This document shows, piece after piece, positions 3,504 to 63,217 of a DNA stretch of 64,000 nucleotides. The notes beneath the pieces are model-generated. The model was given only the letters and a program-made list of their open reading frames with translations, was not told the DNA's origin and searched no databases. The position numbers were made by a program, and so were the translations under genes. The stretch covers positions 19,313,540-19,377,539 of the forward strand of contig CM055094.1 of the NCBI GenBank assembly GCA_029204225.1, in the 5' to 3' direction. The DNA is from Diphasiastrum complanatum (Eukaryota > Streptophyta > Lycopodiopsida > Lycopodiales > Lycopodiaceae). Every line of letters starts with the position of its first letter. Position 1 is the stretch's first letter.

Positions 3504-5049
3504 TATCGATGTTCTCTGTCCTTCTGATTTCGCCTCTTATTTTCGTCATTTACAAGAGGCTGAAGAGTCTCAGAAAAGGATTGTTGATCTCCAACATCGG
3601 CTTAGGAAGATGGAGCAGGACCTAGAAATGAACATAGTATCGGCGGTTGAGAAAATCCGTTTGGCCAAGATATCAGAAACTACGAAATCTATATGCGGAA
3701 GAGATTTGGAGGCACATGATATCAGTTATTCGATTATGGTAGGACGCAAAGACGCGGACAAGTCAGTTCCAACGACGACATCTAATTGATCGGGAGCTCT
3801 TCTCAGCTAGAAATAATGGCGTCTACCGGTTGGAGAGCTCCAGTCCTCAAAGATACGCACGTGAATGAAAGGCTTGAGCAAGCACCAAAGCAAGTCCAGA
3901 ATGATCCTTCTTTCGTCCCAAGATTTCGTAGAAGACGAGCATGGAGATCGGAAGACAACATATCAGCATATCCTTGCAACTTTGCGATAATAGATGGCTC
4001 ATACATCAATCAATAATTTCTGGGAACTGAGTTTCGATTCTCGCGATCCTACAATCCAGTTACAACACAAGTTCTGCCAGTTTCTGATGACTGTCATGGG
4101 CCAAAGGTTTGAGCAAGATCCACAATTTTCCATCAATCCCAACAAAGCGGTCCTTCACATGGAGGATACCAGGATCTATTTACGGATTCAATACTTTCCT
4201 GCAGACTCCATACATATCTTCGAAGAGATGTGCACTTCAGGATTTATCATCAATGCTGATGAGGGTTACATGTACACCCAAAGATCAAAAGCATTTATTG
4301 GTCGAAGACAAATACTGACTCAAAACTGCTTCAACTGGCTACGTGAGCAAAATCATAAGCATGCCAGTAATTATTGGACTCTGATAGGGCGAAAAGACGG
4401 GGACAAGTCAGTTCCAACGAGGGCATCTAATTCGATCGGGAGCTTTTCTCAGCCAGATTTAATTTCGTCGACCGGTTGGAGGGCTCCATTCCTCAAAGAT
4501 ACGTACGTATATGAAATGCTTGATCAATCACCAAAGCAAATTCAGAATGATCCTTCTTTCGGCCCAAGTTTTCGTAGAAGACGAGCGCTAGCATGGAGAT
4601 CGGAAGACAACATATCAGCATATCCTTGCAACTTTGCGATAATAGATGGCTCGTTTGCTTCTCAGAAGGAATGTCATACATCCATCAAGAACTTTTGCAA
4701 ATTAACTTCCGATTCTGACGATCCTACAATCAAGCTATAACACAAGTTCTGCCAGTTTCTGATGACTGTCATGGGCCGAAGGTTTGAGCAGGATCCACAA
4801 TTTTTCATCAATTCCAACAAACCGGCGCTTTACATGGAGGATACCAGGATCTATTTACGGATACAATACTTTCCTGCAGACCCCATACAAATCTTCGAAG
4901 AGATGTGCACTTCAGACTTTATCTTCAATGCTGATAAGGCTTACACCCAGAGATCAAAAGCATTTGCTGGTCGAAGACAAATGCTGACTCGAACCTGCTC
5001 CAAGTGGCTGCGCGAGCAATATCATAAGCATGATGCCCACTATTCCTGA
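3312..5049 (+). pseudogene. Block A copy 2: most complete plus-strand copy, with lesions
   Basis: Same unrecognised gene as copy 1. The small exon lies near 3,330-3,412 after a TATGCAG acceptor. The coiled-coil exon starts near 3,556, but its acceptor ACAG is changed to ACAA. A one-base loss near 3,784 shifts frame, and about 24 bp are missing near 3,998 inside module 1. The frame then stays open through the rest of module 1 and all of module 2's first half (3,994-4,740), has a TAA for a Gln codon at 4,738-4,740, and resumes to a natural-looking end KHDAHYS at 5,049. Both modules and the true C-terminus are present, so this copy shows the domain order best: coiled coil, module 1, module 2. 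Probably non-functional. Confidence 0.7.
3459..3499 (+). repeat. (TC)n microsatellite in A intron
   Basis: About 20 TC dinucleotides at the position equivalent to 1,034-1,066. Confidence 0.95.
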
Positions 5050-11160: not shown

Positions 11161-11500
11161 ACCAAAAAAGTGAATAGGGAAAAAGTAATGGCAAACCTGA
11201 ATGCAATAAAGGAACTTCCAAAATCCCTATTCAAGAGCAAAAAATCCAAAATCCCCCCCCCCCAATTAATATAACCAGTAACATTATTCTCAAAGCATCT
11301 ACGATGAGCTACAAACAACACTTGGAGAGTAAAGAATTAGGAATCTGTCAAATACTCTTGCATCTAGTATTTGAAAAGTTAGACATAATGATAGTATCAT
11401 AAGAATGAGTTAGAGAAGATTCTGAAGCCATCCAGAGGTGTGTTGTTGTTTTATTAGTTGCCTAGATACATATCAAGCTACCCCAAGTTACCACAGATCT
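11161..11500 (-). other. Spacer with poly-G/C tract and F-flank sequence
   Basis: Holds a C tract near 11,257-11,265 and sequence (ACATATCAAGCTACCCC, TTGGAGAGTAAAG) that recurs at 22,920-23,310, 36,446-36,690, 47,820-48,200 and 58,680-58,900. No gene seen. Confidence 0.5.
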
Positions 11501-12400
11501 ATTATATGAGTTAAACACGGGTCTATATGAGGCAAGGTGTATATATTGCAAAAAGCGAAAAGGAAGGTCTCCCCTTTTATCATATTTGGACAGATGTGTA
11601 CAACCGGTAATTGGGTTAAAGGTAATTGTAATATTCGGAAAGTTCACCAAATTACATGTGTTGTCGTTTCCGTCTATCTCAAGGTATTCCAGGGGATAGA
11701 TCCAAAAAGGATTGTCAAGTGTTCTTGGTTGAGTCTTGTCTGGAAAACGTCCAACCGTATGATTATTGATAAAGCATATATCGTCAATGTACCTGAACGA
11801 ATATTTGAAGTCGTTTATAAATTTAATTTCCCCTAATCTTGCAAGCCTCTTAATAAACTGCAATTTAAAAAAAGAACGGTACCAATTACAAGACATTGGT
11901 GAATATGAAAAACCCATTGGTATTCCCCCAACCTATCGCCAAGTATGATCCCCAAGTCTGATGTTGCAATTGTCTATCAAATAGAAATTCCAAATGCATA
12001 AGGTATTCTTGCGGTCTACAGTACTCCATTCATATTAACCTGTATTTTTCGAAACCCATTTAAAATCATTGGTTTCAGATATTCGTTTGTATTTGAGCAA
12101 TTTGATTTTAGCAATTTTAAATGCCGAAAAAATCATTTTAGTCATAATAGTTTTCAAATCGTCAATCCCGTTCAAAGGAATATTGCTTTTTTGGGGGTAA
12201 CCTAATTCTTTTGCTTGCTCGTTTTTTGAGTTTGTAATGCAATTTGAGGCTGAAATTTTCAGCACACAAGGCTTGTAGGAGGGCGAGTTCCTGCATCCAT
12301 CTAATGTGTGGTTTCGACACATCTTGGGGCTGATTTTTTAGATTTGATACTTGCTGTTTTTTGTGTCTTTTAGGGCACATTTAGGGTTTGAAAAAGTTTA
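11500..12400 (-). pseudogene. Penelope-type reverse transcriptase fragment (broken)
   Basis: On minus, about 12,060-11,510 reads FYLIDNCIIRLGDHTWR, stop, then VGGIPMGFSYSPMSCNWY and later FRYIDDICFINN, PLEYLEIDGNDN and SKYDKRGDLPF. These match in order the RT core of Penelope-like and related elements: FLIDN before VGIPMG, the RYIDD catalytic box, then LEI and LYDKR. Two of the catalytic Asp residues (YIDD) are intact. Upstream, 12,380-12,035 has open stretches that I cannot assign. A stop replaces the residue just before VGGIPMG. The last ~20 residues (TWGSLICI) come from unrelated repeat sequence, so the fragment is truncated at both ends. A second copy is at 35,885-36,445. Confidence 0.7.
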
Positions 12401-14544: not shown

Positions 14545-15000
14545 AAAATTTTATGACCTAACCTGAACCAAAAGGAATCATATGCACATAAATATGCCTC
14601 TTCGAATCATTCCTACAAGATCAGTCGAATCATCATGCAATAATCATCGTTTCCACATCCTATCAAAGCAACATTGCTCCAAAGTTTTCCACAAATTTCT
14701 AGTCCGCATACACTGTCGAGCAATACTCTACATACGCTGCTCAGAGAGCCTAGCCCCCAGGCTCTGCAATCACTATGGACCGAGTCGAGCGTCCATACTC
14801 TACATTCACTGTGGACTGAGTTGAGCATCCATACTCTGCATACAAAGTTGACTGAGTTGAGTCCATCCAAAGACGACCGATCCGAAGCCCTCCGTAGTCG
14901 ACCGAGCCGAGACACCACTTGTCTGTTACCAGAGCCGAACCTTCAACAGAGTCCTTCGCCGAGTCCAAAATATGTCTGCCACAACATCTTCCAGTTCTGA
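14545..15000 (+). repeat. Block C leader, copy 1
   Basis: Starts near CCTAACCTGAACCAAAAGG and runs through a motif TATCAAAGCAACATTGCTCC, then three to four ~36-bp degenerate repeats (CCGAGTCGAGCGTCCATACTC type), to TGTTACCAGAGCCGAACC. The latter resembles an initiator-Met primer-binding site (TGGTATCAGAGC) only loosely. Probably an untranslated leader of the C unit. Confidence 0.55.
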
Positions 15001-16115
15001 TGACCCAATTCTAGACAGAATTGACATCACCATGGAAAGCCTCGATATCTCTGAGATGAACACTTGGTACCAGGAGACACACCAGTTCCTGAGCCACATA
15101 GAGTTCCAACTTCCTCTTTTGATCAGTGGCTATCAGAGCCCATTTCAATTGCATATTGCTTATAACCACACTGACAGATTTTCCAGTTCATGTTACCTCC
15201 TTACCAAAATTTTGTTTATATTATCCCTATTTCAGGATAATATAACACAATCAATAGGACCCTCAAAAAGATTGAATCCACAACATACTTGAAATACATA
15301 GACCCCTCAGTGGACAAATGGAAAAAAAAAGATGGTTATCCTATTGAGGTCATAAATGATAAGCCCTTAGCTGCTCTGTGCGCCTATCTAACGAAATATA
15401 CATAGGGCTATAGGTCCAAGATCACGCGTATCCCCATGAAACTATTCCACATGATGGCTGATTCTAAACTACACGATCAGAACCTTTATGACTCGGCCCA
15501 GTTTGCTTCCAACTGCCTCCATGACTATATCAAGAACAAGCAAACCTCCAATTATTGGGCTATCTTCTGGTAGATGTCACATTGCAGCAGTTGAGCCACT
15601 GACCTCGATTTTGAGACCACTTGATGCTAGCAAATAAAAGCTTGGGAGACTCCCTCAGAACCAGCCAAGAATAACAACTCTACTTCCAGGCCTATTGCAA
15701 CAGATTCCACGCAAGCGGCTTCTCAAAAGAGAAAGAGTTCATTCTCTCCACAAGGGCCAACTACAAAGCACCAAACGGTCGACCTAGTGAAGCTTACATC
15801 AAGAAAGACACCCACGTACTCTATGTCACAGACGAAGGATCGTTACAAGTGAAGCGTCATGCTTCATCAGATGAAACAGACTCAAATGATATGGAGTTTA
15901 CATTCGAGGTGTTCCATGGCCCAAAAGGGCTGTCTAAGAAATGCCATGTAAGAGAGAGAAAATTGTCAAATTTTAAAACTCCGACCGAGTTTTTGGTCTG
16001 CCCGCACAACTCCGATGACTTGACCTCACTAGTAACGTATGTAGTTAACTGGAAGTTGGGTAGCCACAACGCGTGGGGTCCATACTTCAAGATTCTATTT
16101 TCTACCATTAACTAA
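14972..16115 (+). pseudogene. Block C copy 1, ORF-1 (unrecognised, broken)
   Basis: Starts MSATTSSSSDDP at 14,972 and reads DITMESLDISEMNTWYQ and a region IEFQLPLLISGY. It then changes frame near 15,185. It continues in other frames with IESTTYLKYIDPS, RSKITRIPMKLFHMM and QFASNCLHDYIKN, and ends in the clean 88-residue frame 15,849-16,115. Lesions against the best paralogues: a stop where others read KYTQRY, a 2-bp loss before the LLGYLL motif, and a TAA near 15,670. I do not recognise the family. It has no zinc knuckle, protease or RT motif. A structural protein of some element or a captured host gene are both possible. Confidence 0.5.
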
Positions 16116-16588
16116 CATGACTTCTCATGTAAATGTAAATCGTATTGCACATCAAAGTTTTCTTTCCATCTACTAAAGTGTTCACATCAAAGGAAAACAG
16201 TCTTATCGATCTGCAAATCATGGCAAGAAACTTTGAATATTTTGGTTCACAATGAGCGCCAACGTGAATCTAAATTTTTGAAACTCAGAAAATACGGAAG
16301 TGTGTTGGATCAAATGAAGCGGCAAGGTTATCTCAAACTTTTGCAATTCAAAAATTTGCAATTTCAACACACATCTATTGAAAAAATATTTTGCTTATTT
16401 TGCTCATAACTGCAAAGCTTTGATTTTGCATATAAAGCAAGAAACATGGAGTGTGATGGATCAAAAAGAGTGCCAAGGTCATTTCCAACTTTTCCAATTA
16501 TTTTTTTTTATAATTAAGATGAGTTTTAATAGCTTACAAGATATATAACAAGTGGGTTTTCTACTAGATTAATCTATCGATTATTAAG
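16116..16588 (+). other. AT-rich spacer between C ORF-1 and C ORF-2
   Basis: About 470 bp, 97-98% alike in the partner copy at 40,722-41,195 by eye. Poly-T at 16,501-16,510. No lasting frame; could be intergenic or intron. Confidence 0.5.
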
Positions 16589-18186
16589 ATGTCTAAATAT
16601 CATCTCCATATTGATCTTCCCACAGAATATGCTCCACTGTCGAGAAAAAATCTGAAAGGTTCCACCTTACCAGCTCACCAAAGGACGAAAGACAGGAAAT
16701 ATTGTGATCTATGGGTTGATGGAAGTTTGTATCCAATCGATCCAAGCTCAATGCAACATCCAAATTTTAGATCGGTCACACAACTCATATTGTTTTTGTG
16801 TGAAGGACACGATAGTCTATTGGGTTATTGTGAAAGATTGAAAAGTTATGGCATTAGTTATTCAATGAGAAAATCCACTATTTGGAAAATATGTTGAATG
16901 GTTTGCTTACTGACTACCGAGAAAAAGAAATTTTTTTTTGCAAACAAAAGAAGAAAATGAAATCTTGAAGATAGATAATTCTCGTTTGCAAGGTATTATA
17001 TTAAACCTCAACCAAGAAACTGACAATATGAAACTAATTGTACAAACATTGTGTACCTCATATTGTCAAATAAATGTAGAAGTAAACACATTTCGGAAGA
17101 AAATACTGAACAATAAGTGAAAAAGAGTTATTTTAAAAAGTAGTGACGAGCTCTCAACAAGTGGGGGTCAACGGAAAAAAGGAATATATGCTTTCAAGTA
17201 GGATCAATGGTTGTGAATTGTTTTTTTCTAAATCTTATTTTTATTTTGCGGAGCAGCTTTAGTCACCAATGAAAATCCGAAAGACAAGGACATGATTGGA
17301 AAGTCTTTGAGTGCATACTTACAGCCAAGTCAACGACGAGTCTACTTGGAAATCAACGATATTCTCGAATCGTGCCCAAGATTGCAGAGGCCCTTATGGG
17401 CGAAGTCGGCAAGATCATTGACCGAAAATTGATACAAGGAGCATGTGATTATTCTGGTATTAGTAGGGATGCATATGACACAATGTTTAAAATTATCAAA
17501 GAGGCATTTGGACAAGTACATGTAAAACAATTTCCTATTCCCCGGCCCTTTCAAATCAAATTAGCGAGGGATGTGTTAAACAGGGGTTTGCAAAACATCA
17601 TTGGTAATCCTTACCATATCAATAAAATTTATAACTCAAAACATGGCACTTTGTCATATGATTCTACCAACAATATGTTTGTAGATCTGAATCATTTATA
17701 GAGATTTATTGTAAAGTTTTATGGAATCACGAACGAAATTGAAAGGGTTAGTGTTACACTTATGAATGGAACATTAAGCAATACGATAAACTCGGAGAGT
17801 CTTAATTTCAGTGTGCAGTCCGAAAATAATATTTGGTGGTTGGCAGCTTTCCAGGTTTAAATCTATTCTATTGAGTACTAGCAACTAATTCATCTCGAGA
17901 ATTAATGGTTTTGTGTTTTAAGCTAATATTGTTTTGTTATTATAGGTCTGAGTTCAATTCTCTTCAAATAGTTCATGATTTTGTGTTTCAAACAGGTTTT
18001 AAAGAAGATCATGAAATTCTATTTTGGATTTTTAGTAAAACAGAATATCCAGAGATAATTAAGAATCATATGAGCGACACACCACTCAATGTTCCTAGAA
18101 TAGGTGATTTTAAGGTGGAATGGTATTTGGTTCACACACCAAGAGCTACAGGGAGTGAAAGTCCAAAACTTACAGAAATGTTTTAA
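16589..18186 (+). pseudogene. Block C copy 1, ORF-2: multi-part unrecognised protein
   Basis: Begins MSKYHLHIDLPTEYAPL at 16,589 with a basic N-terminal region and LWVDGSLYPIDPSS. Near 16,870 the useful frame shifts by one base into HYLENMLNGLLTDYREKE and a coiled-coil stretch ending at 17,118. A spacer ending in GCGGAGCAG at 17,261 looks like an intron 3' end. Then come SLSAYLQPSQRRVYLEIND and, after another one-base shift, ALMGEVGKIIDRK to NNMFVDLNHL, a TAG at 17,699, and on to WWLAAFQ. A probable intron of 94-104 bp follows (GTTTAAAT...TTATTATAG near 17,853-17,946). The final exon (FNSLQIVHDFVFQTG to KLTEMF) ends at 18,186. The frameshifts are shared with copy 2. Family not recognised. Confidence 0.5.
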
Positions 18187-18261
18187 CTAATCAAACAACA
18201 TTTATATAGCTAAAACCAATAAAACCCAAGTCGTACACTCGTCGATCCAACAACGGATCAG
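18187..18261 (+). other. Boundary between block C and block H promoter
   Basis: Short spacer with AATAAAACCC, a possible polyadenylation hexamer after the C end, before the CACGTG array starts. Confidence 0.3.
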
Positions 18262-18660
18262 ATCTATTGCACGTAATACAACCGTCCACACGTGTGAGAC
18301 CACACGTGCTACAATACACGTCAATCTGCCATTCGGCCGCATGCCCACACGTGCGAGCTAACACGTGCCAGAACACACGTCACCAAACCATTCGACCACA
18401 TGGCCACATGTGCAAGTTTCACGCGTGCGGATACAGAAGTGTGGTCCCACACGTCAATTACTGATTGGGCCACGTGACCACACGTGCGAGCCGATACGTG
18501 CAAGAACACATGTCGCTGATCCATTCGGCCACGTGTCCCCACATGGGATCCCAGACGTAATGATCCAGACGTGCAGTTTTACACATGCGTATACAAACGT
18601 GTGGTTCCACATGTCAGCTATTGACTGGGCCACGTGTCGCTGGGATTCACACGTGCCAAC
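18262..18660 (+). promoter_or_regulatory. CACGTG (G-box) array upstream of H3-like copy 1
   Basis: About twenty ACACGTG, CACGTG, ACATGTG or ACACGTC elements occur in 400 bp, usually 12-20 bp apart. Two imperfect direct repeats of about 130-165 bp make up most of it: one from CCCACACGTGCGAGC near 18,348 and one from ACCACACGTGCGAGC near 18,478, each ending GGGCCACGTG. In plants the CACGTG palindrome binds bHLH and bZIP factors. The array sits directly upstream of a TATA box. Regulation by such factors is inference. Confidence 0.65.
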
Positions 18661-18669
18661 TTTTTCTCC

Positions 18670-18677
18670 TATATAAG
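18670..18677 (+). promoter_or_regulatory. TATA box of H3-like copy 1
   Basis: TATATAAG in CTCCTATATAAGTCC, 335 bp before the ATG. The same element is at 43,276, 63,545 (minus) and 12,942 (minus). A start of transcription near 18,700 is expected from usual spacing. Confidence 0.6.
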
Positions 18678-18699
18678 TCCATTCTCGGGGATTGTATAG

Positions 18700-19004
18700 G
18701 GTTTCGCGTAATTTGCTGTCATGTTTGATTGCTTCCATACGACCTGCATTCGTGATATCGCCAGCATGCTAGCGACCTCGTCCCCAGGCCTAGTCCTTAC
18801 ACCCTCTCATGTCGTAGCGATATCAGCCTGACTTTCCCAGTATCGCCATCATGCAAGCCCCTGCCTCTCCCCGCCTGTCTCTGCCACTCTCTCGCGTTGT
18901 AGCGATATCACCCTTAGACTTCTCAGTGTTGCCATTACGCGAGATAATTTAGCTCTCTCTTCTGCTGTATCTCTGTCCTCGCATGGTATAGATATCCGGC
19001 CTCA
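18700..19004 (+). other. Leader of H3-like copy 1 with GATATC repeats
   Basis: About 300 bp with three imperfect ~65-bp repeats built round GTAGCGATATCA and AGTATCGCCATCATGC. Probably 5' untranslated. No splice sites are needed to reach the ATG. Confidence 0.45.
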
Positions 19005-19463
19005 ATGGCTCGGACGAAGCAAACTGCTAGGCTTACCCATTTTGTTCAACCATCCCGTCCCCTGACATTTGAACCCATACGTGTGCAAAGACGCGGAAGA
19101 CCTCGCCGTCCATGGTTGAGGGACATCAGGGCCTTACAGAGGTACACCAAACTTGTGATCCTGTAAGCAGCCTTGTACCGGGCTGTGAGGGAGGTTACAC
19201 AAGATATGACCACGCATCTGCCCTATGCAGTGAGGTGGAATATCGCTGCATTGGAGGCCCTCCATATTGCATACGAGGACTTCCAGACAAAATTGTTTGA
19301 GGAATCAATGCAGTGTTCCATTCATGGCAAGAGCGTGACACTGATGCCCAAGGACATGCTTCTTGTCATGAGGTTTCGAAACACCTATGACAACGGTATG
19401 CCACATGGCAAATCATACAGGCTTGAGGGTTGCCATGTGGCAAGCTATGTAGGCCTACCATAA
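19005..19463 (+). pseudogene. CENH3-like histone H3, copy 1 (nonsense codon)
   Basis: Same gene as 43,611-44,069, with all 53 codons of the tail and alpha-N present (ARTKQTAR start). A TAA at 19,164-19,166 replaces the Lys-54 codon AAA. The frame then stays open to 19,463 with the complete histone fold (RWNIAAL, LFEESMQCSI, VTLMPKDM). The base change that makes the stop also makes CTGTAAG, a donor-like sequence. An alternative is an internal start at Met 19,203 or 19,173, which would lack the tail. Promoter array, TATA box and leader are intact upstream. Most likely a recent pseudogene of the copy-2 type. Confidence 0.8.
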
Positions 19464-20198
19464 CCTTGTATGTCAAGCCAACTAGGCCCTGTGCCACGTA
19501 GGCTTGAGTGGACCTAGAGATCTATATATATATATAGGTGGGCTCAAAAGTTGCCACTTGGCAAACCACACAGGCCTACCATAGGCTTGCGTGGCAGGCC
19601 ACATAGGCATGGCATGTTTCTGATGCTTCCTACATAAGAATGTCGCAGGCTACCACATAGGCTTGTCATAGGCTTGTGTGGCAAGCAAACCAGGCTCTGC
19701 CATGTAGGCTTGAGCGGAGCTAGAGAGAGAGAGCTGGGGCTCCCAAGTTGCCATGTGGCAAGCCATGTAGGCATGTGATGAGATAAACCATAGGCTTGCG
19801 TGGCAGGCCACATAGGCATGGCATATTTCTGATGCTTCCCACGTAAGCATGTCGCAGGATACCACATGGGCTTGCCATAGGCTTGTGTGGCAAGCCAGCC
19901 AAGCTCTGCCATGTAGGCTTGAGTGGAGCTAGAGAGAGAGAGCTGGGCCTCCCAAGTTGCCATGTGGCAAGCCATGTAGGCATGTCATGAGATAAACCAC
20001 ACAGGTTGGGGACTTGCCATGTGGCAAGCCATGTAGGCCTATCATAGGCTTGCGTGGTAGGTCATATAGGCATGACATAGGCTTGATGCTAGTATGTTCA
20101 TGCTGGTATGTTGTAGTCTGCCATATAGGCTTGACATAGGCTTGTGTGGCAAGCCAACTAAGCTATACCACGTGGGTTTCCCATGTAGGCTTGAGTGG

Positions 20199-20201
<3 letters not shown>
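19390..20201 (+). repeat. Satellite-like block E after H3-like copy 1
   Basis: Starts inside the last ~25 codons of the histone frame. It has a TATATATATATA stretch near 19,523, then two tandem ~206-bp units (CTAGAGAGAGAGAGCTGGG at about 19,721 and 19,928) made of GGCTTGYGTGGCAAGCC and GCCATGTAGGC words. A third, shorter unit leads to the GA tract. Confidence 0.8.

Positions 20202-20238
<37 letters not shown>
20202..20238 (+). repeat. (GA)n microsatellite
   Basis: About 18 GA dinucleotides ending the E array, just before the ACTACTTCCCTGTGG segment that leads into the chimeric H3 frame. Confidence 0.95.
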
Positions 20239-20241
<3 letters not shown>

Positions 20242-20284
20242 TCACACATGAACTACTTCCCTGTGGTATGGCCTAGCATCAACG

Positions 20285-20647
20285 TTGAAAAAAATATCTG
20301 ATGGAGATAAGAAGGGTCCCAAAAAATATCTGATGGAGATAAGAAGGAAAGCAGCCTTGTACCGGGTTGTGAGGGAGGTTACACAAGATATGACCACGCA
20401 TCTGCCCTATGCAGTGAGGTGGAATATCGCTGCATTGGAGGCCCTCCATATTGCATACGAGGACTTCCAGACAAAATTGTTTGAGGATTCGATGCAGTGT
20501 TCCATTCATGGCAAGAGGGTGACACTGATGCCCAAGGACATGCTTCTTGTCATGAGGTTTCGAAACACCTATGACAGCGGTATGCCACATGGCAAATCAT
20601 GCAGGCTTGAGGGTTGCCATGTGGCAAGCCATGTAGTCCTACCATAA
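20285..20647 (+). pseudogene. Chimeric CENH3-like ORF 1 (tail replaced)
   Basis: An open 120-codon frame. The first ~20 residues (MKKISDGDKKGPKKYLMEI then RR) come from the end of block F, in which the ISDGDKKGP segment is repeated twice. From KAALYR on, it is the H3-like alpha-1 to alpha-3 core with loop 1 (RWNIAAL), LFEDSMQCSI and VTLMPKDM. The join is at residue 54 of the complete protein, removing the H3 tail and alpha-N helix. The CACGTG promoter is absent. Frame kept, no stop, but without the alpha-N helix it would not be a normal nucleosomal histone. Counted as a pseudogene, though expression is not excluded. Confidence 0.65.
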
Positions 20648-21091
20648 CCTTGTATGTCAAGCCAACTGGGCCCTGTGCCACGTAGGCTTGAGTGGACCTA
20701 TAGATCTATATATATATATAGGTGGGCTCAAAAGTTGTCACTTGGCAACCCATACAGGCCTACTATAGGCTTTCGTGGCCGGGCACATAGGCATGGCATA
20801 TTTCTGATGCTTCCCACGTAAGCATGTCGCAGGCTACCGCATAGGCTTGCCATAGGCTTGTGTGGCAAGCAAACCAAGCTCTGCCATGTAGGCTTGAGCG
20901 GAGCTAGAGAGAGAGAGCTGGGGCTCCCAAGTTGCCATGTGGCAAGCCATGTAGGCATGTCATGAGATAAACCATAGGCTTGCGTGGCAGGCCACATAGG
21001 CATGGCATATTTCTGATGCTTCCCAAGTAAGCATGTCGCATGCAAGCCAACGAAGCTATACCACGTGGGTTTGCCATGTAGGCTTGAGTGG

Positions 21092-24061: not shown

Positions 24062-25795
24062 TGTTCAGGAATAGTTGGCATCATGCTTATGATATTGCTC
24101 GCGCAGCTACTTGGAGCAGGTTCGAGTCAGCATTTGTCTTCGACCAGCAAATGCTTTTGATCTCTGGGTGTAAGCCTTATCAGCATTGATGATAAAGCCT
24201 GAAGTGCACATCTCTTCGAAGATTTGTATGGAGTCTGCAGGAAAGTATTGTATCCGTAAATAGATCCTGGTATCCTCCATGTGAAGCGTCGGTTTGTTGG
24301 GATTGATGAAAAATTGTGGATCCTGCTCAAACCTTCGGCCCATGACAGTCATCAGAAACTGGCAGAACTTGTGTTGTAGCTTGATTGTAGGATCGTCAGA
24401 ATCGGAAGTTAATTTGCAGAAATTCTTGATGGATGTATGACATTCCTTCTGAGAAGAGAACGAGCCATCTATTATCGCAAAGTTGCAAGGATATGCTGAT
24501 ATGTTGTCTTCCGATCTCCATGCTAGCGCTCGTCTTCTACGAAAACTTGGGTCGAAAGAAGGATCATTCTAAATTTGCTTTGGTGATTGATCAAGCATTT
24601 CATAGACGTACGTATCTTTGAGGAATGGAGCTCTCCAACCGGTCGACGCAATTAAATCTGGCTGAGAAGAGCTCCCGATCGAATTAGATGTCGTCGTTGG
24701 AACTGACTTGTCCCCGTCTATTCGTCCTATCACAGTCGACTTACTGGCATGCTTATGATTTTGCTCACGTAGCCAGTTGAAGCAGTTTCGAGTCAGTATT
24801 TGTCTTCGACCAGTGAATGCTTTTGATCTGTGGGTGTACATGTAACCCTCATCAGCATTGATAATAAATCCTGAAGTGCACATCTCTTCGAAGATATGTA
24901 TGGAGTCTGCAGGAAAGTATTGAATCCGTAAATAGATCCTGGTATCCTCCATGTGAAGGACCGCTTTGTTGGGATTGATGGAAAATTGTGGATCTTGCTC
25001 AAACCTTTGGCCCATGACAGTCATCAGAAACTGGCAGAACTTGTGTTTTAGCTGGATTGTGGGATCGCGAGAATCGGAACTCAGTTCCCAAAAATTATTG
25101 ATTGATGTATGACATTCCTTCTGAGAAGAGAACGAGCCATCTATTATCGCAAAGTTGCAAGGATATGCTGATATGTTGTCTTCCGATCTCCATGCTCGTC
25201 TTCTACGAAATCTTGGGTCGAAAGAAGGATCATTCTGGACTTGCTTTGGTGCTTGCTCAAGCCTTTCATTCACGTGCGTATCTTTGAGGACTGGAGCTCT
25301 CCAACCGGTAGACGTCATTAATTCTGGCTGAGAAGAGCTCCCGATCAAATTAGATGTCGTCGTTGGAACAGACTTGTTTTGCGTCCTACCAGAATCGAAT
25401 TACTGATATCATGTGCCTCCAAATCTCTTTTGCATATAGATTTCGTAGTTTCTGATATTTTGGCCAAACGGATTTTCTCAGCCGCCGATACTATGTTCAT
25501 TTCTAGGTCCTGCTCCATCTTCCTAAGCCGATGTTGCATCAACAATCCTTTTCTGAGACTCTTCAGCCTCCTGTAAATGACGAAAATAAGAGGCGAAATC
25601 AGAAGGACAGAGAACATCGATAATGCAGAGAGAGAGAGAGAGAGATATTCCATGCATTGCATTCTATTTGTACTATTTCGAGTTAGACGTTGAGGCATTG
25701 TAGTCATATGTATAGAGCATCCCATCCTTAAAGGAGAACTTGTGACCATTCTCTAGGTGACTTGAATAAGCCCGCTCTCCATTCATTTCAAAGTC
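24062..25795 (-). pseudogene. Block A copy 3 (broken)
   Basis: Minus-strand A gene. The coiled-coil exon starts at 25,570 behind an intact TTTACAG acceptor; a small loss in GTTGATGCAACATC and a 7-bp loss near 25,375 break its frame. Module 1 and the first part of module 2 are open for 259 codons (25,348-24,569). TAG at the Gln of SPKQIQ ends that stretch, and the frame is open again at 24,352-24,107 until TAG replaces the Trp of SKWLRE. Same domain order as copy 2: coiled coil, RRRRAWR patch, PCNFAIIDG, MTVMG globular part, twice. Two nonsense changes and two indels make function unlikely. Confidence 0.7.
25627..25645 (-). repeat. (GA)n microsatellite in A intron, short allele
   Basis: About nine dinucleotides at the position that holds about 57 in the partner copy at 50,399. 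Confidence 0.95.
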
Positions 25796-37851: not shown

Positions 37852-39130
37852 CATCAAGAACAGCTTTTAATGCAAGATTTAAAACAAGAGTTCAATGATG
37901 TTTTTCCTAAATAGCTAAGATTTTTTGAGGTACATACTTCTAATTATATTGCAGTCCGTTGTTAGAACATAATCAAATTTTTCTGAAATGAAATCTTTGA
38001 AATGTTTTAGGAAAGAACAAGAACATAAAGATAGATTTTCAATTTCAAAATTGCAGAAAACATCAAACAGAAAGTACCATTCACTTTTGATGTTAGGTAA
38101 GTATGACCAAGCAAACACAATATTATGGAAGGACTTGTGTATATAAGGCCAAAGATCTGTAATAAAATACAAGTGTAAAAGTGTCTTACATGAACGGTCT
38201 CAAACATTCTATTATAGTAGCGTAAATGCAAAAATATCTTTGTCTTGTCCTTGCGCGTGCTGAGCTGTAGTCGATCCACCGTATTCCTAGTGAGAGTTCT
38301 TCTATGCAGATCCTCGTCATCCTGCAAGCTAGTTAATACCTGTAAAAGTTCAGTCTTTTAGCCAGTAAGTCTTCTTTTGCACCACTGCCTTGTCCATCCT
38401 TTCCTTTATATCATGTATACTTCTTTCTTTTTCCCATATTTTGTCCAGAAACCACCAAACTAGGGTTGTTTAGGTTGAAAGAACCAGGCCTTTCATTTGA
38501 GTTTTGGAAGAATTTATCTTGGACAATGATAAAACGTGGTCTTTTGAGGAGGCGTTGAATCTCTCTGATGTTTTCATCATCTCCTAAGTTGGCAAGGAGT
38601 TTAGCAGAAGGGTTTGCAGCAAATCAATCATGTGCTGGCGTAAAAAGAGAAAAGTATGTGTGACTTGACAACATCTCTGGCGAGCTTGTGTAGCCAAAGA
38701 AAAAAGCCATTCATCTAATTTTGGAAGGATGGACCAAGGAAGAATTTACTAAGATTGTTCATCATGAAACACGATGATCCCAAAAAAAGGAAATGACATG
38801 GAGACCCATTTTTTTTTAATTTTATACAAAAAAATACCCATATTTAAAATGCTTCAAATAAAGATATTGTAATGCTAAAAAAAATGTTGTATTTTGCAAG
38901 AAAATTAATCAACCTACTAAAATTTTGTTAATAGATTTTTATTAATAATTGCACATTAGTTTACATGAAATAATAGTACTATTCAAAATAAAATCATTGG
39001 ACACAACCATTAGAATAACTAAAAAAAAAAATTTGCTTATTAAAACAAAAGTTCTTTAATTTTATTTTAAAAATTTTAGAAGTGTTTTGAATTACAATTC
39101 TTGTATCAAGAAAAATATTTTTTAAATTAT
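37851..39130 (+). mobile_element. Block B unit 5: Ty3/gypsy relic
   Basis: Downstream part of the unit after the protease: QLLMQDLKQEFNDVFPK and a stop, then the antisense ORF part (38,640-38,350, minus) and the AT-rich end (38,780-39,130). Orientation is opposite to units 1 and 2. Confidence 0.65.
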
Positions 39131-39550
39131 GACCTAAGCTGAACCAAAAGGAATCATATGCACATAAATATGCCTCTTCAAATCATTCCTACAAGAACAG
39201 TTGAATCATCATGCAATAATCATCGTTTCCACATCCTATTAGAGCAACATTGCTCCAAAGTTTTCCACAAATTTCTAGTCTCCATACACTGCCGAGCAAT
39301 ACTCTACATACACTGCTCAGAGAGCCTAGCCCCCATGCTCTGCAATCACTGTGGACCGAGTCGAACGTCCATACTCTGCATTCACTGTGGACTGAGCTGA
39401 GCGTCCATATTCTGCATACAAAGTTGACTGAGCCGAGTCCATCCAAAGACGACCGATACGAAGCCCTCCACAGTCGACCGAGCCGAGACTCCACTTGACT
39501 GTTACCAGAGCCGAACCTTCAATAGAGTCATCAGCCGAGTCCAGAACCTG
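39131..39550 (+). repeat. Block C leader, copy 2
   Basis: Same layout as 14,545-15,000, with the ~36-bp degenerate repeats between about 39,340 and 39,440 and TGTTACCAGAGCCGAACC at 39,500. Confidence 0.6.
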
Positions 39551-40721
39551 TCTGCAACAACATCTTCCAGTTCTGATGACCCAACTCAAGACATAATTGA
39601 CATCACCATGGAAAGCCTCGATATCTCTGAGATGAACACTTGGTACCAGTAGGCACACTAGTTCCTGAGCCACATAGAATTCCAACTTCCTCTTTTGATC
39701 AGTGGCTAGCAGAGCCCGTTTCGATTGCATATTGCTTATAACCACACCGACAGATTTTCTAGTTCATGTTACATCCTAACCAAAATTTTGTTTATATTAT
39801 CCCTATTTCTAGAGCTGACCTGAATACATTTGGCTTCCCTAGGGGAGCAAACACTGTCAATAGGACCCTCAAAAAGATTGAATCCACAACATACTTCAAA
39901 TACATAGATCCCTCAGTGGACAAATGGAAAAACAAAGATGGTTACCTTATTGAGGTCATAAATGATAAGCCCTTAGCTGCTCCGTGCGCCTATCTAACGA
40001 AATATACATAGTGCTATAGGTCCAAGATCACGTGTATCCCCATGAAACTATTCCACATGATGGCTGATTCTAAACTACATGATCAGAACCTTTATGACTC
40101 TGCCTACTTTGCTTCCAACTGCCTCCATGACTATATCAAGAACAAGCAAACCTCCAATTATTGGGCTATCTTCTGGTAGATGTCACTTTGTAGCAGTTGA
40201 GCCACTGACCTCGATTTTGAGACCACTTGATGCTAGCAGATAAAAGCTTGGGAGACTCCCTCAGAACCAGCCAAGAATACCAACTCTACTTCCAAGCCTA
40301 TTGCAACAGATTCCACGCAAGCGACTTCTCAAAAGAGAAAGAGTTCTTTCTCTCCACAAGGGCCAACTGTAAAGCACCAAACGGTCGACCTAGTGAAGCT
40401 TACATCGAGAAAGACACCCACGTACTCTATGTCACAGACGAAGGATCGATACAAGCGAAGCGTCATGCTTCATCAGATGAAACAGACTCAAATGATGTGG
40501 AGTTTACATTCAAGGAGTTCCATGGCCCAAAAGGGCTGTCTAAGAAATGCCATGTAAGAGAGAGAAAATTGTCGAATTTTAAAACTCCGACCGAGTTTTT
40601 GGTCTGCCCGCACAACTCCGATGACTTGACCTCACTAGTAACGTATGTAGTTAACTGGAAGTTGGGTAGCCGCAACGCGTGGGGTCCATACTTCAAGATT
40701 CTATTTTCTACCATTAACTAA
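39551..40721 (+). pseudogene. Block C copy 2, ORF-1 (unrecognised, partly open)
   Basis: Start codon lost: ATGTCTGCCAC of other copies is CTGTCTGCAAC here. The piece NQNFVYIIPISRADLNTFG to AYLTKYT (39,766-40,011) ends at the same TAG as copy 1, and the 2-bp loss before the LLGYLL motif is shared as well. The last 164 codons are open (40,227-40,721): ADKSLGDSLRTSQEYQLYF, TDEGSIQAKRHASSDETDS, VEFTFKEFHGPKGLSKKC and PTEFLVCPHNSDDLTSL up to FKILFSTIN. In copy 1 a TAA breaks this part. Family unknown. An acidic stretch (SSDETDSNDVEF) lies before a Cys-containing C-terminal domain. Confidence 0.5.
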
Positions 40722-41195
40722 CATGACTTCTCATGTAAATGTAAATCGTATTGCACATCAAAGTTTTCTTTCCATCTACTAAAGTATTCACATCAAAGGA
40801 AAACAGTCTTATCGATCTGCAAATCATGGCAAGAAACTTTGAATATTTTGGATCACAATGAGCGCCAATGTGAATCTAAATTTTTGAAACTCAGAAAATA
40901 CGGAAGTGTGTTGGATCAAATGAAGCGGCAAGGTTATCTCAAACTTTTGCAATTCAAAAATTTGCAATTTCAACACACATCTATTGAAAAAATATTTTGC
41001 TTATTTTGCTCATAACTGCAAAGCTTTGATTTTCCATATAAAGCAAGAAACATGGAGTGTGATGGATCAAAAAGAGTGCCAAGGTCATTTCCAACTTTTC
41101 CAATTATTTTTTTTTTATAATTAAGATGAGTTTTAATAGCTTACAAGATATATAACAAGTGGGTTTTCTACTAGATTAATCTATCGATTATTAAG
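40722..41195 (+). other. AT-rich spacer between C ORF-1 and ORF-2, copy 2
   Basis: Partner of 16,116-16,588. Near identity outside coding suggests the two copies are recent. No gene. Confidence 0.5.
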
Positions 41196-42791
41196 ATGTC
41201 TAAATATCATCTCCATATTGATCTTCCCACAGAATATGCTCCACTGTCGAGAAAAAATCTGAAAGGTTCCACCTTACCAGCTCACCAAAGGACGAAAGAC
41301 AGGAAATATTGTGATCTATGGGTTGATGGAAGTTTGTATCCAATCGATCCAAGCTCAATGCAACATCCAAATTTTAGATCGGTCACACAACTCATACTGT
41401 TTTTGTGTGAAGGACACGATAGTCTATTGGGTTATTGTGAAAGATTGAAAAGTTATGGCATAAGTTATTCAATGAAAAAATCCACTATTTGGAAAATATG
41501 TTGAATGGTTTGCTTACTGACTACCGAGAAAAAGAAAATTTTTTTTGCAAACAAAAGAAGAAAATAAAATCTTGAAGATAGATAATTATCGTTTGCAAGA
41601 TATTATATTAAACCTCAACCAAGAAACTGACAATATGAAACTAATTGTACAAACATTGTGTACCTCATATTGTCAAATAAATGTAGAAGTAAACACATTT
41701 CGGAAGAAAATACTGAACAATAAGTGAAAAAGAGTTATTTTAAAAAGTAGTGACGAGCTCTCAACAAGTGGGGGTCAACGGAAAAAAGGAATATATGCTT
41801 TCAAGTAGGATCAATGGTTGTGAATTGTTTTTTTCTAAATCTTATTTTTATTTTGCGGAGCAGCTTTAGTCACCAATGAAAATCCGAAAGACAAGGACAT
41901 GATTGGAAAGTCTTTGAGTGCATACTTACAGCCAAGTCAACGACGAGTCTACTTGGAAATCAACGATATTCTCGAATCGTGCCCAAGATTGCAGAGGCCC
42001 TTATGGGCGAAGTCGGCAAGATCATTGACCGAAAATTGATACAAGGAGCATGTGATTATTCTGGTATTAGCAGGGATGCATATGACACAATGTTTAAAAT
42101 TATCAAAGAGGCATTTGGACAAGTACATATAAAACAATTTCCTATTCCCCGGCCCTTTCAAATCAAATTAGAGGGATGTGTTAAACAGGGGTTTGCAAAA
42201 CATCATTGGTATTCCTTACCATATCAATGAAATTTATAACTCAAAACATGGCACTTTGTCATATGATTCTACCAACAATATGTTTGTAGATCTGAATCAT
42301 TTATAGAGATTTATTGTAATGTTTTATGGAATCACAAACGAAATTGAAAGGGTTAGTGTTACACTTATGAATGGAACATTAAGCAATACGATAAACTCGG
42401 AGAGTCTTAATTTCAGTGTGCAGTCCGAAAATAATATTTGGTGGTTGGCAGCTTTCCAGGTTTAAATCTATTCTATTGAGTACTAGCAACTAATTCATCT
42501 CGAGAATTAATGGTTTTGTGTTTTAAGCTAATATTGTTTTGTTATTATAGGTCTGAGTTCAATTCTCTTCAAATAGTTCATGATTTTGTGTTTCAAACAG
42601 GTTTTAAAGAAGATCATGAAATTCTATTTTGGATTTTTAGTAAAACAGAATATCCAGAGATAATTAAGAATCATATGAGCGACACACCACTCAATGTTCC
42701 TAGAATAGGTGATTTTAAGGTGGAATGGTATTTGGTTCACACACCAAGAGCTACAGGGAGTGAAAATCCAAAACTTACAGAAATGTTTTAA
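41196..42791 (+). pseudogene. Block C copy 2, ORF-2 (unrecognised, broken)
   Basis: Same parts as 16,589-18,186: MSKYHLHIDLPTEYAPL, LWVDGSLYPIDPSS, one-base shift into HYLENMLNGLLTDY and coiled coil, GCGGAGCAG intron end, SLSAYLQPSQRRVYLEIND, one-base shift into ALMGEVGKIIDRK. It has an extra 2-bp loss near 42,172 (IKLEGCV instead of IKLARDV), so the third part ends early at 42,228. The last exon (FNSLQIVHDFVFQ to KLTEMF) is intact. The two earlier shifts are identical in both copies. Not recognised. Confidence 0.5.
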
Positions 42792-42867
42792 CTGATCAAA
42801 CAACATTTATTTAGCTAAAACCAATAAAACCCAAGCCGTACACTCGTCGATCCAACAACGGATCAGA
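42792..42867 (+). other. Boundary between block C and H promoter, copy 2
   Basis: Contains AATAAAACCC as in copy 1, then the start of the CACGTG array. Confidence 0.3.
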
Positions 42868-43268
42868 TCTATTGCGCGTAATACAACCGTCCACACGTGT
42901 GAGACCACACGTGCTACAATACACGTCAATTTGCCATTCGGCCGCATGCCCAAACGTGCGAGCTAACACGTGCCAGAACACACGTCACCAAACCATTCGA
43001 CCACATGGCGACATGTGCAAGTTTCACACGTGCGGATACAGAAGTGTGGTCCCACACGTCAGTTACTGATTGGGCCACGTGACCACACGTGCGAGCCGAT
43101 ACGTGTAAGAACACATGTCGCTGATCCATTCGGCCACATGTCCCCACATGGGATCCCACACGTGTTGATCCAGAGGTGCAGTTTCACACATGCGTATACA
43201 AATGTGTGGTTCCACATGTCAGCTATTGATTGGGCCACATGTCGATGGGATTCACACGTGCCAACTTT
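42868..43268 (+). promoter_or_regulatory. CACGTG (G-box) array upstream of the intact H3-like gene
   Basis: About twenty CACGTG-like elements in two imperfect direct repeats, as at 18,262-18,660. Several elements differ between copies (for example ATACGTGTAAG here, ATACGTGCAAG there), yet the core ACGT is usually kept. It lies just upstream of TATATAAG. Binding by bHLH/bZIP factors is a family-based expectation, not shown. Confidence 0.65.
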
Positions 43269-43275
43269 TTTCTCC

Positions 43276-43283
43276 TATATAAG
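43276..43283 (+). promoter_or_regulatory. TATA box of the intact H3-like gene
   Basis: TATATAAG, 335 bp before the ATG at 43,611, same context as copy 1 (CTCC before, TCCATTC after). Confidence 0.6.
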
Positions 43284-43299
43284 TCCATTCCCAAGGATT

Positions 43300-43610
43300 G
43301 TATAGGTTTTCTCGTAATTTGCTGTCGTGTTTGATTGCTTCCATACGACCTACATTCGTGATATCGCCAGCATGCGAGCGACCTCGTCCCCAAGCCTATT
43401 CCTTACACCCTCTCATGTCGTAGCGATATCAGCCTGACTTTCCCAGTATCGCCATCATGCAAGCCCCTGCCTCTCCCCGCCTGTCTCTGCCACTCTCTCG
43501 CGTTGTAGTGATATCACCCTTAGAGTTCTCAGTGTCGCCATTACGCGAGATAATTTAGCTCTCTCTTCTGCTGTATCTCTGTCCTCGCATGGTATAGATA
43601 TCCGGCCTCA
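43300..43610 (+). other. Leader of the intact H3-like gene
   Basis: Probable 5' untranslated region with three GATATC/TATCGCC repeats as in copy 1. A purine/pyrimidine-mixed stretch, no upstream ATG with a long frame in it. Confidence 0.45.
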
Positions 43611-44069
43611 ATGGCTCGGACGAAGCAAACTGCTAGGCTTACCCATTTTGTTCAACCATCCCGTCCCCTGACATTTGAACCCATACGTGTGCAAAGACGC
43701 GGAAGACCTCGCCGTCCATGGTTGAGGGACATTAGGGCCTTACAGAGGTACACCAAACTTGTGATCCTGAAAGCAGCCTTGTACCGGGCTGTGAGGGAGG
43801 TTACACAAGATATGACCACGCATCTGCCCTATGCAGTGAGGTGGAATATCGCTGCATTGGAGGCCCTCCATATTGCATACGAGGACTTCCAGACAAAATT
43901 GTTTGAGGATTCGATGCAGTGTTCCATTTATGGCAAGAGGGTGACACTGATGCCCAAGGACATGCTTCTTGTCATGAGGTTTCGAAACACCTATGATAGC
44001 GGTATGCCACATGGCAAATCATGCAGGCTTGAGGGTTGCCATGTGGCAAGCCATGTAGGCCTACCATAA
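43611..44069 (+). CDS. CENH3-like histone H3 variant, intact frame
   Basis: 152 codons, no intron. Residues 2-9 are ARTKQTAR, the invariant H3 tail start with Lys-4 (K5 when counting Met). The tail then diverges completely: it has no K9/K14/K27-type ARKS motif and is short, ending in RRGRPRRPW. The fold follows: alpha-N/alpha-1 (LRDIRALQRYTKLVILK, YRAVREVTQDM), an extended loop 1 with RW at 77-78, alpha-2 ending LFEDSMQCSI (97-106), and KRVTLMPKDM (109-118). Trp in a lengthened loop 1, DSMxC and RVTLMxKD are CENH3 traits, while the tail start is H3-like. Residues after about 128 come from satellite E. The start is chosen for ARTKQTAR. Its promoter array and TATA box are upstream. The lack of introns may mean a retrocopy. 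Histone H3-like origin is firm; a centromeric role is inference. Confidence 0.8.
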   Translation: MARTKQTARLTHFVQPSRPLTFEPIRVQRRGRPRRPWLRDIRALQRYTKLVILKAALYRAVREVTQDMTTHLPYAVRWNIAALEALHIAYEDFQTKLFEDSMQCSIYGKRVTLMPKDMLLVMRFRNTYDSGMPHGKSCRLEGCHVASHVGLP

Positions 44070-44750
44070 CCTTGTATGTCAAGCCAACTAGGCCTTGTGC
44101 CACGTAGGCTTGAGTGGACCTAGAGATCTATATATATATATATATAGGTGGGCTCAAAAGTTGCCACTTGGCAAACCACACAGGCCTACCATAGGCTTGC
44201 GTGGCAGGCCACATAGGCATGGCATGTTTTTGATGCTTCCTACATAAGCATGTCGCAGGCTACCACATAGGCTTGCCATAGGCTTGTGTGGCAAGCAAAC
44301 CAGGCTCTGCCATGTAGGCTTGAGCAGAGCTAGAGAGAGAGAGCTGGGGCTCCCAAGTTGCCATGTGGCAAGCCATGTAGGCATGTGATGAGATAAACCA
44401 TAGGCTTGCGTGGCAGGCCACATAGGCATGGCATATTTTTGATGCTTCCCACGTAAGCATGTCGCAGGATACCACATAGGCTTGCCATAGGCTTGTGTGG
44501 AAAGCCAACCAAGCTCTGCCATGTAGGCTTGAGTGGAGCTAGAGAGAGAGAGCTGGGCCTCCCAAGTTGCCATGAGGCAAGTCATGTAGGCCTATCATAG
44601 GCTTGCGTGGTAGGTCATATAGGCATGACATAGGCTTGATGCTAGTATGTTCATGCTGGTATGTTGCAGTCTGCCATATAGGCTTGACATAGGCTTGTGT
44701 GGCAAGCCAACGAAGCTATACCACGTGGGTTTGCCATGTAGGCTTGAGTG

Positions 44751-44754
<4 letters not shown>
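44000..44754 (+). repeat. Satellite-like block E after the intact H3-like gene
   Basis: Begins within the last ~24 codons of the histone frame, has a TATATATATATATATA stretch near 44,129, then two ~206-bp units and a third shorter one, up to the GA tract. Confidence 0.8.

Positions 44755-44785
<31 letters not shown>
44755..44785 (+). repeat. (GA)n microsatellite, interrupted
   Basis: About 15 dinucleotides with one C interruption (GACAGAGA at 44,761). Confidence 0.95.
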
Positions 44786-45129
44786 GAGTCACACATGAAC
44801 TACTTCCCTGTGGTATGGCCTAGCATCAACGTTGAAAAAAATATCTGATGGAGATAAGAAGGGTCCCAAAAAATATCTGATGGAGATAAGAAGGGTCCTG
44901 AAAGCAGCCTTGTACCGAGCTGTGAGGGAGGTTACACAAGATATGACCACGCATCTGCCCTATGCAGTGAGGTGGAATATCGCTGCATTGGAGGCCCTCC
45001 ATATTGCATACGAGGACTTCCATACAAAATTGTTTGAGGATTCGATGCAGTGTTCCATTCATGGCAAGAGGGTGACACTGATGCCCAAGGACAAGCGTCT
45101 TGTCATGAGGTTTCGAAACACCTATGACA

Positions 45130-46038
<909 letters not shown>

Positions 46039-48820: not shown

Positions 48821-50640
<1,820 letters not shown>

Positions 50641-59533: not shown

Positions 59534-59606
<73 letters not shown>

Positions 59607-62308: not shown

Positions 62309-62835
62309 CCACTCAAGCCTACATGCCAAACCCACGTGGTATAGCTTAGTTGGCTTGCCACACAAGCCTATGTCTAGCCTATATGGCAGACTGCAACATA
62401 CCAGCATGAACATACTAGCATCAAGCCTATGTCATGCCTATATGACCTACCACGCAAGCCTATGATAGGCCTACATGGCTTGCCACATGGCAACTTGGGA
62501 GCCCCAGCTCTCTCTCTCTCTAGCTCCACTCAAGCCTACATGGCAGAGCTTGGTTGGCTTGCAACACAAGCCTATGGCAAGCCTATGTGGTATCCTGCGA
62601 CATGCTTACGTAGGAAGCATCAGAAACATGCCATGCCTATGTGGCCTGCGACGCAAGCCTATGGTAGGCCTGTGGTAGGCAACTTTTGAGCCCACCTATA
62701 TATATATATAGATATCTAGGTCCACTCAAGCCTACGTGGCACAGGGCCCAGTTGGCTTGACATACAAGGTTATGGTAGGCCTACATGGCTTGCCACATGG
62801 CAACCCTCAAGCTTGTATGATTTGCGATGTGGCAT
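62305..62835 (+). repeat. Satellite-like block E, array beside H3-like copy 3
   Basis: Mirror of the arrays after the other H3-like genes: one ~206-bp unit, TATATATATATA near 62,698, then words running into the 3' end of the minus-strand histone frame. Confidence 0.8.
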
Positions 62836-63217
62836 ACCATTGTCATAGGTGTTTCGAAACCTCATGACAAGAAGCATGTCCTTGGGCATCAGTGTCATGA
62901 ATGGAACACAGCATCGAATCCTCAAACAATTTTGTCTGGAAGTCCTCGTATACATTATCGAGGGCCTCCAATGCAGCGATATTCCACCTCACTGGATAGG
63001 GCAGATGCGTGGTCATATCTTGTGTAACCTCCCTCACAGCCCGGTACAAGGCTGCTTTCAGGATCACAAGTTTGGTGTACCTCTGCAAGGCCCTGATGTC
63101 CCTCAACCATGGACGGCGAGGTCTTCCGCGTCTTTGCAGACGTATCGGTTCAGATGTCTGGGGACAGGACGGTTGAACAAAATGGGTAAGCCTAGCAGTT
63201 TGCTTCGTCCGAGCCAT
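62770..63217 (-). pseudogene. CENH3-like histone H3, copy 3 (frameshift)
   Basis: Minus strand, ARTKQTARLTHFVQPS start at 63,217, tail and alpha-N complete (QRRGRPRRPW, QRYTKLVILKAALYRAV). RWNIAALEALDNVYED shows changes in alpha-2, then LFEDSMLCSIHD. About 11 bp covering the GKRV codons are missing near 62,905, which shifts frame; the lost frame MTLMPKDMLLVMRFRN is visible from 62,888. DSMLCSI is closer to typical CENH3 than the DSMQCSI of copy 2. Promoter and leader follow on minus. Pseudogene by the frameshift at the end of alpha-2. Confidence 0.8.

Follow-up and report, generated by a model that had tools for sequence, protein, structure and literature searches.

A histone-like open reading frame of Diphasiastrum complanatum is probably a truncated copy of a transposon gene for a histone–protease fusion

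This work concerns an open reading frame (ORF) for a histone-like protein of 152 residues, located at 43611..44069 (+) in a 64,000-nucleotide stretch of the lycophyte Diphasiastrum complanatum (assembly GCA_029204225.1, contig CM055094.1, positions 19,313,540 to 19,377,539; hereafter the window). The ORF probably derives from the second gene of a CACTA/EnSpm-Mirage-Chapaev-Transib (CMCT) type DNA transposon, of which it would be a truncated copy locked into satellite DNA. Elsewhere in the genome, this element is a unit bounded by terminal inverted repeats (TIRs) that carries both a gene for a transposase with a RAG1 fold and a gene joining an H3/CENH3-like histone to a protease domain of the Ulp1/C48 type.

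The frame consists of two parts, which meet where the histone homology and the element homology both end (about position 43998):

43611..43997 (+): H3/CENH3-like histone domain, codons 1–129, open, from ORF scan and Pfam; homology to the dispersed elements stops here
43998..44069 (+): last 23 codons and stop, satellite-like DNA in place of the protease part of the dispersed copies

A reading made from the letters of the window only (the sequence-only reading) had described the whole as one frame for a protein of mixed H3/CENH3 character. The mixed character and the fold hold to codon 129; the 23 codons behind it, like the stop, turn out to be satellite sequence. The profile search that this reading had proposed gave a match far above the gathering cut-off of 26.4 for Pfam Histone (PF00125; 71.1 bits, E 1.3e-19, over the fold), and many solved H3 chains match the ORF in a PDB sequence search (best E 2.6e-18). 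The motifs that it had listed (MARTKQTAR, RW at 77-78, DSMQC and RVTLMPKD) are all present, and ARKS and STGGK, which belong to the near-invariant tail of canonical H3, are missing as it had stated. The nearest database match is O6H91_14G014700, a protein predicted from D. complanatum (79% identity over 89% of the ORF), which itself appears to be one copy of the histone-bearing element. Since the protease part is lost in the window copy, its sequence could at most yield a histone with a satellite-encoded tail, with no sign of use.

The histone domain shares traits with both H3 and CENH3. Against reference sequences of H3 and of plant CENH3 (the latter from angiosperms), the cores of the element copies are 46-51% identical to H3 and 41-48% to CENH3, with no clear preference from copy to copy. 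In a tree with these references, the copies form one clade with 100% support, and its grouping with the angiosperm CENH3s reaches only 52%. Like plant CENH3, the element histone has a loop 1 that is four residues longer and contains RW, a feature kept in 44/44 copies (30 from arrays and 14 dispersed, picked by protein score); LLIP and DSMLC, found in the majority sequence of the dispersed copies, and RVTLM are also as in Arabidopsis CENH3. Unlike plant CENH3, it starts with the H3-like ARTKQTAR, is no more identical to CENH3 than to H3 in its core, is fused to a protease and is mobile. Nor does it qualify as a canonical H3, since Lys4 is kept but position 9 is Leu in all 44 copies and only 37-40 of 77-81 core positions are identical to the H3 references. 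The sequence-only reading had also considered a decaying retrocopy spread with satellite DNA. The decay and the spread with satellite are borne out; the ORF is not simply a fresh processed copy of H3 or CENH3, because the element copies constitute an old and diverged lineage (one clade at 100% support, with a core identity of ∼41-51% to the reference sequences).

One whole-genome search returned 7,537 loose candidates, of which 150 were scored and all (150/150) matched; these are the best matches by protein score. Ninety-four of them lie in arrays (77 on C3, the contig that holds the window, at 18.5-21.8 Mb, 8 on C3 at 29.9-30.2 Mb and 9 on C14 at 49.4-49.9 Mb), and the other 56 are found on 18 large contigs (counting C14 outside its array) and 3 small ones. 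Dispersed copies are 78-85% identical, and several of them sit within frames of 330-382 residues, a clue that the histone part runs on into another domain. We studied 14 dispersed loci (L031-L036 and L039-L046), all taken from the protein-scored list. In 14/14, a Lys/Pro-rich linker and then exon sequence of C48 type come after the histone domain. Exon 1 can be aligned in a single frame over its full or nearly full length in six (L031, L032, L034, L035, L042 and L046), three of which are stop-free (L031, L034 and L046); the start of the C48 part is missing in L044. Two more exons carrying most of the remaining C48 part are predicted from reading frames and splice-like borders. With these joined, the tails of L035 (22.1 bits, E 1.5e-4) and L042 (27.8 bits, E 2.8e-6) exceed the cut-off of Pfam Peptidase_C48 (20.7 bits) and span profile positions 5 to ∼181 of 217. 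A PDB sequence search with the C48 tail gave no match (best E 0.71). Ulp1/C48 peptidases rely on a catalytic His-Asp-Cys triad. By eye, a catalytic-type Cys is found in exon 3 of 9/12 copies (Tyr in L031, L032 and L033) and a catalytic-type His in 10/11 (Asn in L046).

Homology between copies ends at an inverted repeat of 30 bp, CATTAGAGGAGTT(4)G(2)CCAAAAGGGC, with CA..TG ends that fit with the CMCT group. Both TIRs are present in L033 (6,400 bp apart, with a differing right end), L040 (4,898 bp apart, with much of the transposase gene, here gene A, deleted) and L039 (2,733 bp apart), the last being a duplicate of the L040 insertion because their flanks are identical. A single TIR was seen in L034, L035, L036, L042, L044 and L038, the last extending L031; in the window, left TIRs occur at 15901 and 40507. 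Two weak TIR look-alikes (L039 5261 and window 51137), which have 5 and 6 mismatches, were excluded from this list. L039 (C8) and L040 (C11; contigs in the order given) hold one element insertion with different internal deletions, and to judge from the flanks this would be either an inter-chromosomal segmental duplication or an assembly effect.

The gene A family is predicted to adopt the RAG1/Transib transposase fold, with a DDE core and C(2)C and H(3-4)H motifs, at ∼10-16% identity to solved RAG1 and Transib; nothing in Pfam rises above cut-off for it. CMCT transposons, a group that includes RAG1, share a DDE core bearing C(2)C and H(4)H motifs, the RAG1 fold and CA..TG ends (PMC12730594, PMC9435367), and Transib-like proteins are already on record from plants (PMC9435367). 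Unlike these relatives, the D. complanatum element has an extra histone–protease gene. Upstream of the window ORF lie:

40507..40536 (+): left TIR of the element copy holding the ORF, 2 mismatches
40507..42791 (+): gene A remnant of that copy (RAG1/Transib-fold transposase family, fold taken from relatives)
42890..43270 (+): repeats rich in CACGTG, lying between gene A and the histone gene; found in dispersed copies too

Alignment with the L033 element covers 40507-41959 at 92%, and homology picks up again at 42735. CACGTG (G-box) sites number 8 in window 42890-43270, 9 in L033 4166-4790 and 4 upstream of the L042 histone gene; they may be promoter or transposase-binding repeats. On the opposite strand, the 3' part of the element also holds a 255-residue open frame (gene C; L032 8065..7298, -), with broken relatives in L033 and L034 and no Pfam family above cut-off.

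Several observations weigh against this reading, to which the selection statistics given further below must be added. Exon 1 is shifted or deleted in 8/14 dispersed loci, gene A was not seen in 4/14 within the fetched stretch, and none of the fetched copies is shown to be intact over both genes. The exon borders of the fusion gene are inferred only, and the spliced tail of L041 has no Pfam C48 match. The position of the usual catalytic Asp is, by eye, Thr in 11/11 copies with exon 2. An AlphaFold2 (AF2) model of the fusion was poor (pLDDT 52.5), with H3.3 as best Foldseek match at E 0.08. Finally, no target-site duplication, which is 2-5 bp in the CMCT group, was seen at the two distinct both-ended insertions (L033, whose right end is altered, and L039/L040, which share one set of flanks).

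The sequence-only reading had proposed a new centromeric or gamete-specific H3 of the host, which would be multi-copy by chance. We consider this very improbable and reject it. The longer loop 1 with RW, the LLIP and DSMLC of the dispersed majority sequence, the weak tree placement near plant CENH3 and an array that could be centromeric would suit such a variant, but TIRs, an adjoining transposase gene, the protease fusion and the scatter of copies over many contigs do not. The window itself argues in the same direction, since the ORF ends in satellite and the other copies are broken or truncated. As that reading had noted, there are three full-length copies starting with ATG, one of them open (43611):

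19005..19463 (+): second histone copy of full length (95% identity), interrupted by a stop at codon 54
62773..63217 (-): third histone copy, frameshift near codon 108
20348..20647 (+): 5'-truncated histone copy, without about the first 52 codons
44895..45200 (+): 5'-truncated histone copy, without about the first 52 codons

Histone genes have been reported from some DNA viruses (PMC9145170), and the remnant of a giant virus of this kind could be imagined as the source; this is extremely improbable given the TIR-bounded unit, the RAG1-fold transposase and the introns predicted in the protease part, and a search for gene A relatives in viral contigs produced one pattern match, unconfirmed.

Whether the histone part was ever under selection bears on the transposon reading and on two further alternatives. 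In the 14 dispersed copies, third codon positions account for 25/77 singletons, near the neutral third, versus 32/57 shared variants (Fisher p 0.008). This pattern agrees with constraint during the mobile phase of the element followed by neutral decay, but it is suggestive only because significance is lost when either CpG changes (p 0.07) or C/T and G/A changes as a whole (p 0.44) are excluded, the odds ratio still being 2.2-2.6. The 30 array copies have no codon-position signal (20/51 versus 25/59, p 0.85; 1.0 and 0.10 in the other two versions). Pairwise dN/dS, a comparison that the sequence-only reading had put forward, was computed at 0.376 for the 30 array copies and 0.289 for 6 dispersed ones, compared with medians of 0.81-0.85 and 0.74-0.76 in neutral simulations; these values are uninterpretable because the copies were chosen by protein score, and we discarded them as evidence of selection since a control with neutral copies chosen by protein similarity reached 0.26-0.74.

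It is possible, though we think it rather unlikely, that a piece of an H3/CENH3 gene was picked up by transduplication and that the histone part is an idle hitch-hiker. The even spread of private changes over codon positions in the dispersed copies, the absence of signal in the arrays, the fading of the dispersed signal when CpG-type changes are excluded and the low dN/dS that picking bias alone can give are all in line with neutral cargo, as is the Pseudocercospora hAT transposon, which multiplied hundreds of dead H3 copies (PMC6710886, available part). Such cargo would less readily explain why the frame is open and the Pfam match strong in a core about half diverged from known H3s, why shared variants are skewed to third positions in the dispersed copies, or why K4, L9 and RW are retained in all 44 copies, although these were picked by protein score. 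Alternatively, protease-less copies, for instance those of the chromosome-3 array, might have been domesticated to express and use the truncated histone. This is unlikely: 55/94 array matches are stop-free (34/56 elsewhere), but both fractions are biased upward because the matches are the best by protein score, the arrays have no codon-position signal in any version, and the common breakpoint is accounted for by amplification after truncation.

In the element, gene A is followed by the downstream gene, whose exon 1 encodes the histone and the start of the Ulp1/C48-type domain; in the chromosome-3 array, satellite DNA interrupts this second gene beyond codon 129, and the shortened form recurs in blocks spaced ∼24.6-24.9 kb apart. 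Under the transposon reading, the full-length protein might pair with H4 and enter nucleosomes or chromatin assembly complexes, so that its histone part would bring the protease to chromatin, where the C48 part could strip SUMO or act on related marks and thereby blunt silencing. With Leu in place of Lys9, nucleosomes holding the element histone could not carry the H3K9 mark. The gain for the element would be shelter from silencing or a choice of target. This working model is drawn by analogy with the anti-silencing proteins of Vandal/KIU Mutator-like elements (MULEs), with the histone as a possible targeting part. A tentative and rather doubtful proposal is that a plant transposon supplies itself with a deSUMOylating histone targeted to nucleosomes. 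This histone would mimic H3/CENH3, keep Lys4, lack Lys9 and be equipped with a C48 protease, and through it element chromatin would escape the usual silencing or insertion would be steered to chosen chromatin.

Large repeats make up much of the window, many of them ∼24.6-24.9 kb apart and with inverted pieces. The remaining features are:

39127..45595 (+): block around the ORF; shares 95.5% identity with 14551-21040, ∼24.6 kb away
15901..15930 (+): second element copy, left TIR with 2 mismatches
15901..18186 (+): second element copy, remains of gene A
44188..44591 (+): 209-bp tandem repeat adjoining the ORF, with others at 19578-19999 and 45319-45727

The repeat pairs 14551-21040/39127-45595, 21095-24011/45986-48906 and 25627-29597/50501-54441 belong to the C3 array, with relatives on C14, and this region may be centromeric or heterochromatic. 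Long (GA)n/(AG)n arrays lie at or near large-repeat junctions (45884-46036, 50399-50519 and 59538-59604). The ORF at 11462-11917 (-) has, by eye, a reverse-transcriptase-like FRYIDD motif and no Pfam match. A repeated ORF family (MTVMGQRFEQDPQFSINPNK...) with internal duplications occurs at 1677-2291, 3994-4740, 24569-25318 and 48821-49789; two scanned copies (24569 and 48821) have no Pfam match, and the remaining window ORFs that were scanned gave none above cut-off.

Unions of H3 and DNA transposons have been described in fungi. According to the available part of PMC3538342, Pyrenophora tritici-repentis has 26 copies of a hAT transposon that, like the D. complanatum element, combines TIRs, an H3-like ORF (H3L) fitting neither H3 nor CenH3, and long and internally deleted forms; it differs in its fungal host, its hAT transposase and its H3L as a separate ORF, whereas the plant element has a RAG1/Transib-fold transposase and a histone–C48 fusion, with 150 relatives scored. 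In Pseudocercospora, Cercospora and Sphaerulina, a hAT transposon captured H3 (PMC6710886), likewise an old capture with mass amplification, but there a copy of an H3 transcript was inactivated by repeat-induced point mutation (RIP), the transposase is of hAT type and the available part of the report mentions no fusion. Plant DNA transposons with a Ulp1 domain are also on record, namely some KIU/Vandal MULEs, whose VANC-type proteins cause hypomethylation and counter silencing (PMC13317346), and CACTA-ULP of grapevine (PMC2528002); these have MULE or Tnp2 transposases, and no histone domain is mentioned in the available parts of both reports. In the titles and abstract openings of the open-licence PMC papers listed, we found no plant transposon with a histone and no histone–Ulp1 fusion, and protein database searches did not return the combination of histone, Ulp1 and RAG1-fold transposase. 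Work on plant H3 and CENH3 (PMC11687628, PMC4357034) had no bearing on the element.

Alongside the two fungal hAT cases, the D. complanatum element seems to be another case, independent of these, in which H3 was united with a DNA transposon, and this repetition suggests that histones may serve mobile DNA and not be accidental cargo. With its fused SUMO-type protease, the element offers a testable route of escape from silencing, and a RAG1-fold transposase in a lycophyte widens the known spread of Transib-like proteins. For genome annotation, ORFs of the element, apparently including O6H91_14G014700, can pass for CENH3 paralogues. More generally, the gene in the window is a hint that histones can be produced by mobile DNA itself.
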